A stretch of 64,000 nt of DNA, from contig JBDSQB010000003.1 of the NCBI GenBank assembly GCA_039930045.1, forward strand, positions 1 to 64,000. The letters run 5' to 3'. Below the pieces are notes generated by a model. That model had not been told where the DNA came from. It ran no database searches and saw only the letters and a program-made list of their open reading frames with translations. The DNA comes from Chthoniobacterales bacterium. Its GTDB lineage: Bacteria > Verrucomicrobiota > Verrucomicrobiia > Chthoniobacterales > DASVRZ01. Made by a program: the position numbers and the translations under genes. Positions 5,337-51,667 of the stretch are shown here, piece after piece (the stretch's first letter is position 1; each line of letters begins with the position of its first letter).

Positions 5337-6755
5337 CTAATTCCGGCGATAGATGCGGCTGCGGTTCACTCCTAACAATCGCGCCGCCTCGGCGACGTTG
5401 CCGCCAGTTTGAGCCAGGGCACGCTCGATGAGAACCTCCTCGGCTTTCTCCAGATTCAGAGGGAGGTCGCCGACTAGAATTTTTGATTCGAGTTGCACTT
5501 CTTTCTGATGTGTAGGAGTTGCAGACAAATGGAGGTGTGCGAGTTCGATGGCGCCGCCGCCGCTAGCGATGAGGGCGCGCTCGATGAGATTTTTCAGCTC
5601 TCTAACATTGCCGGGGAAATCGCAGGCGGCGAGCGCCTTCAACGCCTCTGGGCTCAGGGCCGGAGGGCGGAGTCCCATTTCAATGGCGAAGACTTTGAGA
5701 AAGTGCGTGGCCAGCAGCGGAATGTCCTCCCGGCGCTGGCGCAACGGCGGCGTCTCCACGGTGTAGCGGGCGAGGCGGAAATAGAGGTCGCGTCGAAATG
5801 CGCCCGATCCGATCTGCGCGTCGAGGTCGGCATTGGTCGCGGCGAGCACGCGGACGTCCACTTTTTTTGCTTGCGTCGCGCCGATGGGAGTCACCAGGCC
5901 ATCCTCCAGCACACGCAGTAATTTCGCCTGCAGCGTCGCGGGCATGTCGCCGATTTCGTCCAGAAACAACGTCCCGCCGTGAGCCAACTCGAAGTAGCCC
6001 TTGCGATCCGCCGTCGCTCCGGTGAACGACCCACGCAGGTGCCCGAAGAACATCGACTCGGCCAATTCATTTGGGATAGCGACGCAATTCACGGCGACGA
6101 ACGGTCCTTTGGCCCGCGTGCTGTCGTGGTGAATCGCCCTCGCGACGAGTTCTTTTCCCGTGCCGCTTTCGCCGGTGATGAGCACGCTGGTGTTGGCAAA
6201 TGGCTGGAGCCGCTCAATGTCGCCGAGAATCTTCCGCATTGTCTGACTTTCACCGACGAAACCCGTCATGCCCCAGCGTTCGTCCTCGCGATCGGTGATC
6301 GTGGAAAGGCGGGCGTCGGAGCGTTCGCGGCGCTCAATTTCCTGGGCCAACTCGCGGTTTTTCTGCATCAGGTCACGAGTCAGCCGGGCGATTTTTAGAT
6401 GCGTCTCCACGCGAATGAGCACTTCCTCGGCTTCGAAGGGTTTCAAAATATAATCCACTCCGCCAACTCGGAACCCGTTCAGGATGCTCGCTGTTTCCGC
6501 TCGTGCCGTGATGAAAATCACCGGTATGTCGCGGGTCGCCGCATGACGCTTCAACTCGCGGCAAATTTCAAACCCGTTGCTGCCGGGCATCATCACATCG
6601 AGCAGGATGAGATCGGGAATCGCCTTCGCCGCAATCTTCAGCGCGACCTCGCCGCCGGGAGCCGTGAGCACCTCGTAACCATGCGGCTCGAGAGTGCCGG
6701 TGAGCACGTCGAGATTGGCCGGAGTGTCGTCGGCGATGAGAATTTTCTCGCTCAT
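5337..6755 (-). CDS. Sigma-54-dependent response regulator, NtrC family
   Basis: This 472-residue transcription activator has a receiver domain (phosphoacceptor D53 in LLDVMMPG, K106 in LKPF), a coiled linker (about 120-160), an AAA+ domain with Walker A GESGTGKE (195-202) and Walker B GGTLFLDE (260-267), and a Fis-type helix-turn-helix at the C-terminus (AARLLGVNRSRIYR). The sigma-54 contact loop reads GSFTGA (242-247) rather than GAFTGA. Its start overlaps the kinase stop by 4 bp, so they form a two-component pair. A sigma-54 promoter and dyad lie directly downstream, so it probably activates the operon at 1-5147; the pilin promoter at 13586 is a second possible target. Confidence 0.93.
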   Translation of the reverse strand: MSEKILIADDTPANLDVLTGTLEPHGYEVLTAPGGEVALKIAAKAIPDLILLDVMMPGSNGFEICRELKRHAATRDIPVIFITARAETASILNGFRVGGVDYILKPFEAEEVLIRVETHLKIARLTRDLMQKNRELAQEIERRERSDARLSTITDREDERWGMTGFVGESQTMRKILGDIERLQPFANTSVLITGESGTGKELVARAIHHDSTRAKGPFVAVNCVAIPNELAESMFFGHLRGSFTGATADRKGYFELAHGGTLFLDEIGDMPATLQAKLLRVLEDGLVTPIGATQAKKVDVRVLAATNADLDAQIGSGAFRRDLYFRLARYTVETPPLRQRREDIPLLATHFLKVFAIEMGLRPPALSPEALKALAACDFPGNVRELKNLIERALIASGGGAIELAHLHLSATPTHQKEVQLESKILVGDLPLNLEKAEEVLIERALAQTGGNVAEAARLLGVNRSRIYRRN

Positions 6756-46591: not shown

Positions 46592-48184
46592 TTACAACGC
46601 GACGACGCGGGCGGAGAGAATGTCGGATTCGCCGGTGAGCGACGCCACGACGTCCGCACTGGGCGAGCTGTCGAGGTTGAGCACGGTGAGGGCTTTGCCG
46701 CCGATCTCATTTCGGCTGAGCGACATGCCCGCGATATTCACGCCGTGCTGGCCGAGTATGGAACCGACTTTGCCGACGATGCCAGGCACGTCCTGGTTTT
46801 CTAAAATGAGTAAAAAACCCGATGGCTTGGCCTCGACGTAGCGCTGGTTGATGCGAACGATGCGAGGCGTGGTGCCGAAGAAGGTGCCGGAGACGGAGAC
46901 GATGTCGTCGCCGCAGCCAGCGGTGACTTCGAGGAGTTCGGCGAAGTCGCCGGAGACGCTCTGGCGGGTTTCTTTGAAGGCGAGTCCGAGGCTTTCGGCG
47001 AGAGCGGGAGCGTTGACGGTGTTAACCTCGGCACCGCCGATGTTGGCGAGGTAGCCTTTGAGAATCATGCGCGAGATCGGAGTCGTGTCGGCCTCGTTGA
47101 TTTTCCCGCTGTAGTTGACGCTAAGGTTTTCGCAGCGTTTCGGAGCGATCTGGCTGATGAATTTCCCAAGTGATTCGCCGAGGGTGAGATACGGACCGAC
47201 AACGGCCAGGGTTTTGGCGTCGATGTTCGGCATATTGACGGCGTTGCGGATCGTGCCTTCGAGCAGGGTGGCGCGAATAGCCTCGGCGATTTCGATACCG
47301 ACATTTTCCTGAGCTTCGGACGTGGAGGCACCGAGGTGAGGGGTCAGCACGATGTTCGGCAGCGAGCGCAGCGGGAAATCTGCGGGAGGCGGCTCGGTTT
47401 CAAACACGTCGAGCGCGGCACCGGCGACGTGGCCGTTTTTCATGGATTCGTAGAGGGCGGTTTCCTCGACGAGACCTCCGCGGGCGCAGTTGACGATGCG
47501 GACGCTTTTTTTGCAAAGAGCCAGGCGGCGGGAGTCGAGCATGTATTTGGTCTCGGCCGTGAGCGGCATGTGCATCGAAATGAAGTCGGCCTGGGGCAGA
47601 ATGTCGTCGAGTTGATCGATTAATTCGACCTGCAAGCTGCGGGCGCGACTTGCGGAGAGATACGGATCGTAGGCCAAAACCCTCATGCCGAAGGCCATGG
47701 CGCGACGGGCGAGTTCCGTTCCAATGCGGCCCATGCCGAGAATGGCGAGGGTTTTGCCGTAAAGCTCGACCCCCTCGAAGTTTTTGCGGTCCCATTTGCC
47801 CGCCTTCATGGAAGCATCGGCCTGCGGGATGTTGCGGGCGAGGGAAACGAGGAGCGAAAAGGCGTGCTCGGCGGTGGAAATGGTGTTGCCGCCCGGGGTG
47901 TTCATGACGATGACGCCATGCTTGGTGGCGGCCTCGACATCGACGTTATCAACGCCGACACCAGCGCGACCGACGGCTTTTAGGTCCTTGGCGGCTTCGA
48001 GGACTTTGGCGGTGACTTTGGTCTGACTGCGAACGACCAGAGCCGAGACGCCTTGGATGGCTTCGATGAGTTGATCTTCTTTCAGACCGGTTTTGACGAC
48101 GACTTCGAGGAGACCGCCGGAAGCGAGTTCATCGACACCGCGTTGAGAAATAGGATCAGCGACAAGGACACGAAAGTTAGCCAT
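46592..48184 (-). CDS. serA: D-3-phosphoglycerate dehydrogenase
   Basis: This 530-residue enzyme catalyses the first step of serine synthesis, oxidising 3-phosphoglycerate with NAD. It is the long type, with a substrate domain (1-95, 280-315), Rossmann domain (GMGRIGTELARRAMAFGMRVLAYDPY near 148-173), catalytic Arg/Glu/His in CARGGLVEE and LTPHLGASTSEAQ, the ASB domain (about 320-450) and a C-terminal ACT domain (about 455-528, LLILENQDVPGIVGKVGSIL). It is divergent from the repeat locus at 48237. Confidence 0.96.
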   Translation of the reverse strand: MANFRVLVADPISQRGVDELASGGLLEVVVKTGLKEDQLIEAIQGVSALVVRSQTKVTAKVLEAAKDLKAVGRAGVGVDNVDVEAATKHGVIVMNTPGGNTISTAEHAFSLLVSLARNIPQADASMKAGKWDRKNFEGVELYGKTLAILGMGRIGTELARRAMAFGMRVLAYDPYLSASRARSLQVELIDQLDDILPQADFISMHMPLTAETKYMLDSRRLALCKKSVRIVNCARGGLVEETALYESMKNGHVAGAALDVFETEPPPADFPLRSLPNIVLTPHLGASTSEAQENVGIEIAEAIRATLLEGTIRNAVNMPNIDAKTLAVVGPYLTLGESLGKFISQIAPKRCENLSVNYSGKINEADTTPISRMILKGYLANIGGAEVNTVNAPALAESLGLAFKETRQSVSGDFAELLEVTAGCGDDIVSVSGTFFGTTPRIVRINQRYVEAKPSGFLLILENQDVPGIVGKVGSILGQHGVNIAGMSLSRNEIGGKALTVLNLDSSPSADVVASLTGESDILSARVVAL

Positions 48185-48236: not shown

Positions 48237-50084
48237 ATGAATGCGCCTGACGCTAGTGGCGAACCTGCAGGCTGCGCAGAGAAAATAAGGAAACTCCTGT
48301 GGATAACTTCGGCGGGAGGCCGGGGAAATCCATCCACAAGTTGTTCACAACAAGATAAATACCTCATTACACGCCATATAAGAATAACATCATACAATGT
48401 ATGTAATATAAAACAGAGGTATCACCGGAACGGGCGCAGAAAGCTGGAAGGTCCTTGCCGGACGGCAATCCCCGCTGACCAGTCATCCCACAGGGATGCC
48501 CTTCCCGTCGAAGATCAGAGGGCGCATGGATGCACCAACGGCGTGGATGCCGCGCCAGCGGCAGCCATGCCGTTTGGTTTATCTATAGTGTCATATCTCC
48601 CTAACACGGAAAACAGCCCTCTGGAGCCCTGTCATGATGTAATTACACTCGGAAAGAGCCTTCCTGATGGAATCGTCCATGTTTCAGAGGTTGTTCCCGC
48701 TGTCCTCGCTGACCTCGAAACGGCGGCCAGACTTATCCATGATTTCCCCGCCCCTGACTCTGGCGAGAATGGGCAGCGTAGCGAAAACAGCTCGTCGGAG
48801 ACAGAGTCAGGGGCGGATCAGGAAATTGTGGGTAAGTCGCGAATTGAGGCCGCGCCCTCGTTTGCAAATGAGAGCTTCGCTGGGGTGAAGTCGCCGCCGG
48901 GTCCTGTGCCGAAAACCTCGGCTCGGCGGTCAGCCCCCAAAATCCCAGTTGCTGACGTGCTGGCCAGAGTCCACAAGTTCGCCACCATGACGGCTGCCAT
49001 ACCGCTCACCCTTCGCACGGAAAAGGCCCGCCATGACCTCGAACACGACCTTTCCGAGTATCGGGACCGCCTCAACGAAATCCTCGAAATCGACTCCCTT
49101 CTTGGTGTAGAATCCAGCGTGCCAGTAACATCATACAATAACGGCCCCACCCTCGAAAACCGGGTCAATCCGTCTGTATGTAATATAAAACAGAGGTATA
49201 AGCGCAATGGACGGCGCATCGCCTCTCCAGCGGTCACGCTGCCAGTCGTGAATGGAATGAACGGTGTTGGGAGCTTGACCACAGAGGCCGCGCCAGCGGC
49301 CTCCGGTGGTCAGGTTCCCTTCCTTGTCTATTTAGAAACAACTCAATCCATTACGAGGGAAAGTGCTGCGGAAGGCCATTTTTCTTCGGACCCGGAAAAC
49401 CCCTCTTTTTGCCCTCCGTGTCTTACATCGGAGGCCAGACTTATCCATGATTTCCCCGCCCCGGCTGGGGTCGAGAATGGGCCCGGAAGGACCAGCTCGT
49501 CGGAGACGCCAGCCGGGGCGGATCAGGAAATTGTGGGTAAGTCGAGAGTTGCAGCCGCTCATCGCTTTCATGTCCTTGGGGGAAGTGACGCTCCCCGTGT
49601 GCCGTCCCTGTCTGCGCCAAAAACCTCGCAGGGGCGGTCTCGACGTTCCCATATCCCGGTTGACTCTGTCCTGGCTCGCGTTCACACGTTCGCCAAGATG
49701 ATCGACGCCATTCCGCTCTCTCTTCGCACTGAGGAGGCCCGCCAAGCCCTCCGAGTCGATGTTTTGGAGTATCGGGACCGCCTCAACGAAATCCTCGATG
49801 TCCGGGAGATCGTGGAGCTGCATTCCCTTCCATCCGTGCTTCCCTCGGCCCCTTTGATAACGTCATACAATAATGACGCCCCCCTCTCCACAGGGGTCAG
49901 TCCGTCTGTATGTAATATAAAACAGAGGTATCACCGGAACGGGCGCAGAAAGCTGGATGGTCCTTGCCGGACGGCAACCCGTCCCGATCAGCCGTCCCAG
50001 CGGGACGCCCTTCCCGGCGAAGATCAGAGGACGCATGGATGCCACGCCAGCGGCAGTTCATGCCCGATTTCGTTGCGCCAGTGA
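48237..50084 (+). CDS. Repeat-built open frame of unknown function (two modules); coding status uncertain
   Basis: This 615-codon frame contains two modules of 259 and 244 codons delimited by three A elements in the same frame. Each module has a RLIHDFPAP...GADQEIVGKSR stretch over a B hairpin and a helical segment (VLARVHKFATMTAAIPLTLRTEKAR...EYRDRLNEIL and its counterpart). In that helical segment, differences between the copies fall mostly at third codon positions (16 third, 7 first, 10 second by my count), which supports translation. The hairpins inside the frame covary as nucleic acid, which a normal gene would not need. The start is unclear; 48568 is an alternative ATG. I recognise no family. 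It could be a pseudogene made of nested repeats. Confidence 0.4.
   Translation: MNAPDASGEPAGCAEKIRKLLWITSAGGRGNPSTSCSQQDKYLITRHIRITSYNVCNIKQRYHRNGRRKLEGPCRTAIPADQSSHRDALPVEDQRAHGCTNGVDAAPAAAMPFGLSIVSYLPNTENSPLEPCHDVITLGKSLPDGIVHVSEVVPAVLADLETAARLIHDFPAPDSGENGQRSENSSSETESGADQEIVGKSRIEAAPSFANESFAGVKSPPGPVPKTSARRSAPKIPVADVLARVHKFATMTAAIPLTLRTEKARHDLEHDLSEYRDRLNEILEIDSLLGVESSVPVTSYNNGPTLENRVNPSVCNIKQRYKRNGRRIASPAVTLPVVNGMNGVGSLTTEAAPAASGGQVPFLVYLETTQSITRESAAEGHFSSDPENPSFCPPCLTSEARLIHDFPAPAGVENGPGRTSSSETPAGADQEIVGKSRVAAAHRFHVLGGSDAPRVPSLSAPKTSQGRSRRSHIPVDSVLARVHTFAKMIDAIPLSLRTEEARQALRVDVLEYRDRLNEILDVREIVELHSLPSVLPSAPLITSYNNDAPLSTGVSPSVCNIKQRYHRNGRRKLDGPCRTATRPDQPSQRDALPGEDQRTHGCHASGSSCPISLRQ
48298..48349. 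promoter_or_regulatory. Cluster of DnaA-box-like sites next to an AT-rich stretch
   Basis: A perfect DnaA box is present on the minus strand (TGTGGATAA, 48298-48306). CCATCCACA (48330-48338, two mismatches) and TTGTTCACA (48341-48349, one mismatch to TTATNCACA) follow. About 70 bp of AT-rich DNA lies beyond (48351-48420) in otherwise GC-rich surroundings. This resembles a replication-origin or DnaA-regulated site, but no dnaA, dnaN or partition gene is nearby. Confidence 0.4.
48391..48570 (+). repeat. Structured repeat element A, copy 1
   Basis: It begins with the hairpin CATAC-AAT-GTATG, continues with a TAATATAAAACAGAGGTAT-type AT-rich core and a CACCGGAACGGGCGCAGAAA segment, then three hairpins: TTGCC-GGAC-GGCAA, CATCCC-ACA-GGGATG (48484-48498) and TGCCGC-GCCA-GCGGCA (48548-48563). 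Copy 3 matches it almost base for base outside the stems. Confidence 0.85.
48730..48838. repeat. Hairpin element B, copy 1
   Basis: Imperfect outer arms (GACTTATCCATGATTTCC and its near-complement ending GTGGGTAAGTC) enclose a perfect 15-bp stem CCGCCCCTGACTCTG/CAGAGTCAGGGGCGG (48748-48762 with 48802-48816) and a loop with GAGAATGGGC and AGCTCGTCGGAGA. The two outer arms carry DnaA-box-like words, TTATCCATG (48733) and TGTGGGTAA (48827). Confidence 0.88.
49132..49303 (+). repeat. Structured repeat element A, copy 2 (diverged)
   Basis: CATACAAT (49132-49139) and GTATG (49176-49180) are here separated by an extra 36 nt that can form its own hairpin (ACGG...ACCC/GGGT...CCGT). The AT-rich core through 49199 is identical to the other copies. 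Further on, CAGCG-GTCA-CGCTG and a perfect 8-bp hairpin GAGGCCGC-GCCA-GCGGCCTC (49284-49303) replace the stems of copies 1 and 3 while keeping the GCCA loop. Confidence 0.75.
49438..49543. repeat. Hairpin element B, copy 2
   Basis: It has the same outer arms and loop words as copy 1, but the inner stem is CCGCCCCGGCTGG/CCAGCCGGGGCGG (49456-49468 with 49509-49521). Both arms changed together relative to copy 1, so pairing is preserved. DnaA-box-like words recur at 49441 and 49532. Confidence 0.88.
49864..50063 (+). repeat. Structured repeat element A, copy 3
   Basis: CATACAAT and GTATG are separated by a 36-nt insert with a CCCC...GGGG hairpin. The AT-rich core is at 49908-49931. The hairpin CGTCCC-AGC-GGGACG (49993-50007) matches copy 1 with a compensatory A-T to G-C change, and TGCCAC-GCCA-GCGGCA (50040-50055) has one mismatch. 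The 732-bp spacing from copy 2 and 777 bp from copy 1 to 2 are both multiples of three. Confidence 0.85.
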
Positions 50085-50389: not shown

Positions 50390-51667
50390 ATGAGCAAACT
50401 CCCCTTGATCGTCGCCACCGCTGCTGGCTGGACCCTCGCCGCAGGTTCCATCATTTATAACACCACGAAGTCGCCCTCCAGCGCGACCGTCTCGGCTTCG
50501 GCGGAACATCCCAACTCCGGCCCCAGTTCCCGTTCCAGTGGCAGCCTCGCCAATGATAATCCGAGTTCCAGCAGCCGCTTGCTGGACGCTAATATCGACA
50601 CGCGCAATCTCACTGCCGATTCTGTCCAAAAAATTGACGATCCGGCCAAGCGGCGTGAGGCGTTCACCGAATTGGGCGGAATGCTGGCCGCTGGCGACCT
50701 CAAGAAAGCCTTGGACATGGTCAGCAAACTCCCTGCTGGAGCGGATCGTCGCGCCATGTTGAGCGGGATTTTTGGCCAGCTCGCCACCACAGATCCGAAG
50801 AATGCCCTGGATGCCGCCAAGAGCCTCACCGATCCCGCCGACAAGCGGTTTGCCATGAAAAGTCTCGCCATGGAATGGGCTTTCTCCAGTCCCGATGACA
50901 AGGGCGACGGCAGTCTGGGAACGTCTGCCGCGATGAGTGTGACCCTCGCCCTCGCCGACAAAAATCCGGCTGAAGCGGCCGCTTTTGCCCAGAACGAAAT
51001 CGAAGGCCGTGAGCGGAGTTTCATGAATATGGCCGTGGCTCGCAGTTGGACGAAATCCGATCCCGTTGCAGCCGCCACCTTTGCCTCGCAACTGGCCGAG
51101 GGCGATGGCCGTCAATGGGTCGTGGCCAGCGTGGCGAATCAATGGGCGGAAACCGATCCGGCTCACGCTGCTGCCTGGGTGGAAAAATTTCCCGACGGCC
51201 GCGAGCGCAATCAATCCATCGACCGCATCAGCAGCAAATGGGCAGAAACCAATCCAGCCCAAGCCATTCAGTGGGCGAGCAATCTTCCGGCAGACGGCCA
51301 GGGTAATGCCTATCGCTCTATCGCCAATACATGGGCCAAGAATGACCCTGCCAAGGCTGTTGCTTGGGCTACGCAAATTACTGACCCCAATTCTCAAAAA
51401 GCCGCCGTCAGTTCTGCCATCGGTAGCTGGGCTTCCACAGACAGTCAGGCAGCGACCAACACGGCGCTAGGCATGAACAATCCGGAGACGCAACAGGCGG
51501 CGATTACCGCGATTGCACGTCAGGTCAGACGCGGTGATCAGGCGGCCTCAGACGCTTGGGTGAACTCAATTCCGGCAGGTCCTTTGCGTGATCTTGCGAC
51601 AAAAAGCCTGACGGAGCGCGGCGGACGAGGCGGTGGAAATTGGGGTGGTGGCGGACGCGGTCAGTAG
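50390..51667 (+). CDS. Exported protein of W-A-x-x-[DN]-P repeats
   Basis: This 425-residue protein has an N-terminal hydrophobic segment (about 4-22, signal anchor) and a Ser-rich spacer (25-65). Helical repeats of about 28-34 residues then run to about 400, with WAETDPAHAAAWVEKFPDG, WAETNPAQAIQWASNLPADG and WAKNDPAKAVAWATQITDP as best units. It ends in a Gly/Arg-rich tail (RGGRGGGNWGGGGRGQ). Repeat proteins of this kind are common and function-unknown in Verrucomicrobiota. They probably form a periplasmic solenoid. The gene converges on an ECF sigma gene 27 bp away. Confidence 0.8.
   Translation: MSKLPLIVATAAGWTLAAGSIIYNTTKSPSSATVSASAEHPNSGPSSRSSGSLANDNPSSSSRLLDANIDTRNLTADSVQKIDDPAKRREAFTELGGMLAAGDLKKALDMVSKLPAGADRRAMLSGIFGQLATTDPKNALDAAKSLTDPADKRFAMKSLAMEWAFSSPDDKGDGSLGTSAAMSVTLALADKNPAEAAAFAQNEIEGRERSFMNMAVARSWTKSDPVAAATFASQLAEGDGRQWVVASVANQWAETDPAHAAAWVEKFPDGRERNQSIDRISSKWAETNPAQAIQWASNLPADGQGNAYRSIANTWAKNDPAKAVAWATQITDPNSQKAAVSSAIGSWASTDSQAATNTALGMNNPETQQAAITAIARQVRRGDQAASDAWVNSIPAGPLRDLATKSLTERGGRGGGNWGGGGRGQ

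Follow-up and report, generated by a model that had tools for sequence, protein, structure and literature searches.

Two large hairpins, B1 and B2, lie within a long open reading frame of the window (the whole 64-kb stretch of DNA analysed here). They belong to a family with full copies in four other genomes of the same order, in which covariation maintains the pairing, the fold shows a strand bias and three of the four genomes carry their copies in mobile-element surroundings. With a probability of about one in two, B1 and B2 are copies of a REPIN-like fold-back element of ~135 bp, a movable module that would be carried by other mobile elements, and which lies here in frame in an orphan gene, within a module that has been tandemly duplicated.

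The hairpins and their reading frame

The locus occupies 2.2 kb between serA (46592-48184, minus strand; PGDH) and a gene at 50390 whose function is unknown. Its reading frame is composed of two tandem modules of ~730-740 bp and of a partial third one. Each full module consists of a 24-bp AT-rich word, a hairpin of a second type (A), a hairpin B and the coding sequence of a small helical domain (Table 1).

Table 1. Features of the hairpin locus (positions in the window)
Feature	Position	Strand	Description
ORF without relatives found	48237..50084	+	615 aa if started at ATG; 645 codons between stops; contains all hairpins
24-bp AT-rich direct repeat, copy 1/3	48399..48422	+	GTATGTAATATAAAACAGAGGTAT
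24-bp AT-rich direct repeat, copy 2/3	49176..49199	+	
24-bp AT-rich direct repeat, copy 3/3	49908..49931	+	
Hairpin A1	48524..48589	+	Second type, tip GCCGC-GCCA-GCGGC
Hairpin A2	49261..49327	+	Second type
Hairpin B1	48730..48838	+	Predicted fold; one of two 33-bp-stem hairpins
B1 outer arms	48730-48747 / 48821-48838	+	
B1 inner arms	48748-48762 / 48802-48816	+	
B1 3' bulge	48817-48820	+	
B1 apical loop	48763-48801	+	
Full hairpin-family match around B1	48719..48854	+	Includes conserved flanks
Hairpin B2	49438..49543	+	Predicted fold; one of two 33-bp-stem hairpins
B2 outer arms	49438-49455 / 49526-49543	+	
B2 inner arms	49456-49470 / 49507-49521	+	
B2 bulge	49522-49525	+	
Full hairpin-family match around B2	49427..49559	+	Includes conserved flanks

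The initial annotation had located two hairpins at 48730-49543. Both lie exactly there, and the inner-stem words it quoted are right. In each of them, an outer stem of 18 bp with three G-U wobbles is followed by a bulge of 4 nt (AUCA) in the 3' arm, the inner stem comprising 15 bp in B1, and 13 bp, a G-G mismatch and 3 bp in B2. The minimum free energies are -65.6 kcal/mol for B1 (z -8.3 against dinucleotide shuffles) and -72.8 kcal/mol for B2 (z -7.5). Synonymous recoding of the same peptide destroys the fold (z ~ -4.8 for B1 and ~ -5.0 for B2). After GC correction, A1, A2, B1 and B2 are the four strongest folds among ~2,130 segments of 120 nt over the 64 kb.

Several smaller features accompany these hairpins. 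A1 and A2 have a conserved tip and stems that are almost wholly different yet paired; of 27 rank-matched pairs, 14 are altered on both sides. Covariation between modules is also seen in a small hairpin (48485-48500 versus 49993-50008), with CATCCC/GGGATG in one and CGTCCC/GGGACG in the other. The three copies of the 24-bp repeat are identical despite diverged flanks, and the repeat is unique to this locus genome-wide (up to 3 mismatches allowed). A consensus DnaA box, TTATCCACA (48298-48306, minus strand), precedes an AT-rich stretch. A replication origin was considered on account of this box and of DnaA-like words in the stems, but dnaA lies on another contig and the contig has no GC-skew switch.

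The frame is likely coding, as judged from several sequence features which are each moderate and have to be taken together. The offsets between repeat blocks (741, 777, 738, 708, 705, 708, 711 and 732) are all multiples of three, as are the net indels between duplicated units. The differences between units are distributed 48/45/72 over the codon positions, dN/dS is ~0.47 (0.40 in the hairpin part), and the same changes placed at random leave no stop in only ~5% of trials. The encoded protein gave no match of meaningful score in Pfam, NCBIfam or PHROGs, and no homologue in 97 relatives or in GTDB contigs, phages, plasmids and viral contigs. None was credible in 388 genomes of the phylum, where one match (E 0.006) has an internal stop. 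An AlphaFold model of one module has a mean pLDDT of 51, and values in the 70s are confined to its small helical part.

Homologues, covariation and the folding strand

Between B1 and B2, five pairs are altered on both sides, one pair is broken and the outer 18 pairs are identical. The initial annotation had counted at least six positions changed on both sides, which is a slight overcount. The same level of covariation is reached by 17 of 500 shuffles, and the two sequences alone thus give modest support for pairing. A covariance model was therefore built and relatives were searched. The first model matched contig C297 of genome G030 (E 1e-18), and a second one retrieved two copies in G064 and one each in G076 and G022. 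The hairpin is thereby present in 5 of the 213 genomes of the order, the window's own included, with homologue scores of 78 to 117 bits (G030, both G064 copies and G076) and of 49 bits (G022). A further search at the DNA level revealed a truncated copy in G039, together with an end fragment in G030. The copy number is 1-2 per genome, as scored on the best candidates per genome in the wide scans.

A class-wide search with model R3 gave no match outside the order, where absence is a weak result as the best 8 candidates per genome were scored. Matches of model R1 in G009 and G018 were judged to be chance (~22 bits, outer stem partial or broken), and the hairpin is absent from viral contigs sharing short exact words with it. 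Neither the 24-bp repeat nor the words of the hairpin recur elsewhere in the window's own genome, and a dispersed REP was rejected accordingly.

Covariation across the seven full copies is strong evidence for pairing. Changes on both sides affect 13 of the 33 pairs, and this covariation score is reached by 0 of 500 shuffles. In the alignment, which was made with MAFFT and not fitted to the structure, 92.6% of cells pair, compared with ~40% in slid controls, although B1 was the main source of that structure, and models of it served to retrieve the homologues. The covariance-model search suggested by the initial annotation has thus yielded more copies with compensatory changes, and its claim of selection for pairing is borne out by a fold kept in four other genomes. 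Gene conversion may account for the identical outer arms of B1 and B2, since the outer arms of other genomes vary with compensation. A U-G pair occupies one stem position in all seven copies, and the bulge and the loop words CGAGAAUG and CGUCG are conserved.

The bulge measures 4 or 5 nt across the homologues, so that the two arms stand in a different relative frame from one copy to another. Only the hairpin is common to the window locus and the homologue loci, not the rest of the ORF. Because the relatives have no reading frame, it is the hairpin, and not the peptide, that appears to be conserved across the family. The earlier view that pairing is kept and not the peptide stands in this respect. 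It does not describe the copies in the window, which share the 645-codon open frame, in-frame indels and the dN/dS ratio given above.

The cells that depart from Watson-Crick pairing point to the + strand as the folding molecule, as RNA or single-stranded DNA alike. Read on this strand, 25 cells are G-U (11 positions) and 2 are A-C (2 positions), counts that are not independent because the copies share ancestry. The + strand fold is also the more stable one, by 6-14 kcal/mol, in every copy.

Genomic surroundings and comparison with known elements

In G076 and on contig C143 of G064, the hairpin occupies the interval from the stop of an IS481-type transposase (rve, LZ_Tnp_IS481) to terminal repeats TGTAACCCATGTCTTGGCCA, related forms of which are also found inverted before the transposase. 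It is antisense to the transposase in these copies. In G030, two IS481-like terminal repeats, GTCAGGACATCGGTAACA, lie ~70 bp from the hairpin in the same relative orientation, and the hairpin itself is ~120 nt upstream of a korA-like gene and codirectional with it. The second G064 copy, on contig C722, stands after a truncated tyrosine recombinase and before a Mutator-type transposase. The G022 copy, close to a contig end, lies ~270 nt upstream of an acs-like gene, in the same direction. The contig with the truncated G039 copy carries a Rep_3 replication gene. An IS481-type element is thus found around or beside three of the seven full copies and is not a constant associate, no terminal-repeat motif being present near the other four. 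As a separate observation, 36-nt inverted repeats rich in CGTTCACCGTTC (5894-5929 and 6201-6236 of L035) enclose the G030 hairpin and its two IS481-like terminal repeats.

The initial annotation knew of no named element of this form. This was wrong in kind, since REPINs, which are REP doublets forming palindromic hairpins, have such an anatomy: their ends are invariant, their spacer varies but pairs, and compensatory changes are common (Bertels and Rainey 2011, PMC3116915). The particular hairpin family is unnamed as far as tested, a covariance-model search of Rfam giving no match. Like REPINs, it folds back over ~100 bp, with near-invariant inverted ends, a less conserved pairing spacer and frequent compensatory changes, and its hairpin is expected in single-stranded DNA or mRNA (PMC3116915). 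Unlike them, it occurs within IS481-type elements and, in the window, within an ORF. It shows no consistent terminal GTAG tag, and CGTC is seen in the loop only; its copy number is low (1-2, among the best candidates scored per genome); and it has no nearby RAYT, no hairpin being found at 30 RAYT/Y1 transposase (Y1_Tnp) loci. Because it departs from REPINs in tag, RAYT association and copy number, the hairpin is described as REPIN-like and is not classed as a REPIN. The GTAG/CGTC-tagged palindromic repeats of bacterial genomes (PMC3733652), units of 20-40 bp with a terminal tag, may likewise fold when two of them are paired in opposite orientation. The present stem is longer, at 33 pairs, and CGTC is confined to the apical loop, where most copies have it.

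Two other fold-back families were seen on the window's own contig, C3, beyond the window. GTAG-tagged REPIN-like pairs, GTAGGGACATGCGG with inverted GTAGGGACGAGCGG, lie at ~99.2, 100.2, 106.1, 106.7 and 122.5 kb (L074, L075, L076). Another large family, GGGAGCGCACGCGTCTCGCGTG and its inverse, lies at ~85.0, 112.0, 214.7 and 275.1 kb (L074, L075, L080, L083).

Two hairpin copies lie inside an IS481-family element and one beside similar terminal repeats; unlike an IS481 component, however, the hairpin is also present where no IS481 remnant exists, and IS481 is not known to require an internal hairpin. Rickettsia palindromic elements also form hairpins and lie in frame within protein-coding genes. 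The present hairpin resembles them in this respect, but B1 and B2 derive from the duplication of one module and not from separate insertions.

Origin and role of the hairpin

The main rival explanation, which we consider rather unlikely, is a structured non-coding RNA (or an IS-borne regulatory RNA) made from the + strand, with the loop words and the 4-5 nt bulge as functional sites. It would fit the strong preference for G-U over A-C (25:2), the U-G pair kept in 7/7 copies, the conserved bulge and loop words, and the codirectional positions upstream of the korA-like and acs-like genes. Counting against it are surroundings that differ among most copies, an antisense position relative to the transposase in the IS481 copies, a location inside an ORF in the window and the lack of an Rfam match. 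Still less probable is a hairpin that would serve as an attachment or origin site, such as an attC-like recombination hairpin, a plasmid oriT or a single-strand origin. One copy is indeed beside a tyrosine recombinase fragment and one is on a Rep_3 contig, but most have no such genes nearby and the window locus lacks a GC-skew switch. The integron R-box pair (GTTRRRY / RYYYAAC) was not found at the stem base in the alignment of copies, in which a GTTGGGT word occurs in G022 only and GTGSGT in the others.

Matching arms could also arise with no selection for the fold. In quasi-palindrome correction, a mutational process known from imperfect palindromes, template switching during replication copies one arm onto the other, and the paired changes within the 8-nt stretch differing between B1 and B2 could be made in one step. 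This explanation is improbable, as imperfections are kept (the U-G wobble in 7/7, a bulge in all, the G-G mismatch in B2) and the 13 changed pairs are distributed over both helices; the retained wobbles and bulges are not accounted for by template switching alone. It is very improbable that the hairpins simply result from repeats in the protein, with peptide modules that happen to have complementary coding sequences. The open frame, the in-frame indels and the dN/dS values do indicate coding constraint in the window, but synonymous recodings almost never fold as well, the frame is shifted in homologues elsewhere and no relatives of the protein were detected. The homologues that lie outside any such ORF largely refute this idea.

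In the preferred reading, that of a REPIN-like fold-back module, the working form would be the + strand folded in a single-stranded state, either as DNA during transfer or as a transcript. A putative mobilising enzyme or partner would read the 18-bp ends, which are nearly invariant, together with the conserved loop words, and pairing would be the sole requirement in the inner stem. One copy would have come in frame into the orphan gene, the ~730-bp module with its hairpin would then have been tandemly duplicated, and the inner stems would have diverged afterwards while maintaining their pairing. Mobility of the element is what we infer. The presence of only 1-2 copies per genome counts against it, as do the 30 Y1_Tnp loci without a hairpin and the weak Y1_Tnp matches that are all the window's genome contains. 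Neither a target-site duplication nor an empty site was seen, the loci compared including no orthologous pair that differs in presence of the hairpin. The IS481 copies, two of which are close relatives of each other, could be passive passengers.

A tentative, more general description is that of an undescribed family of large strand-specific hairpins (~135 nt, with conserved loop words and bulge), borne by IS481-type and other mobile elements and acting as RNA or single-stranded DNA, one of which may have been built into a protein gene whose bases are constrained both as hairpin and as codons. A covarying hairpin first found by eye has been confirmed with independent homologues, which points to a hairpin module common to unrelated mobile elements within one bacterial order. 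In the window, the same bases of a gene appear to serve as codons and as a paired stem, a dual constraint that is testable.
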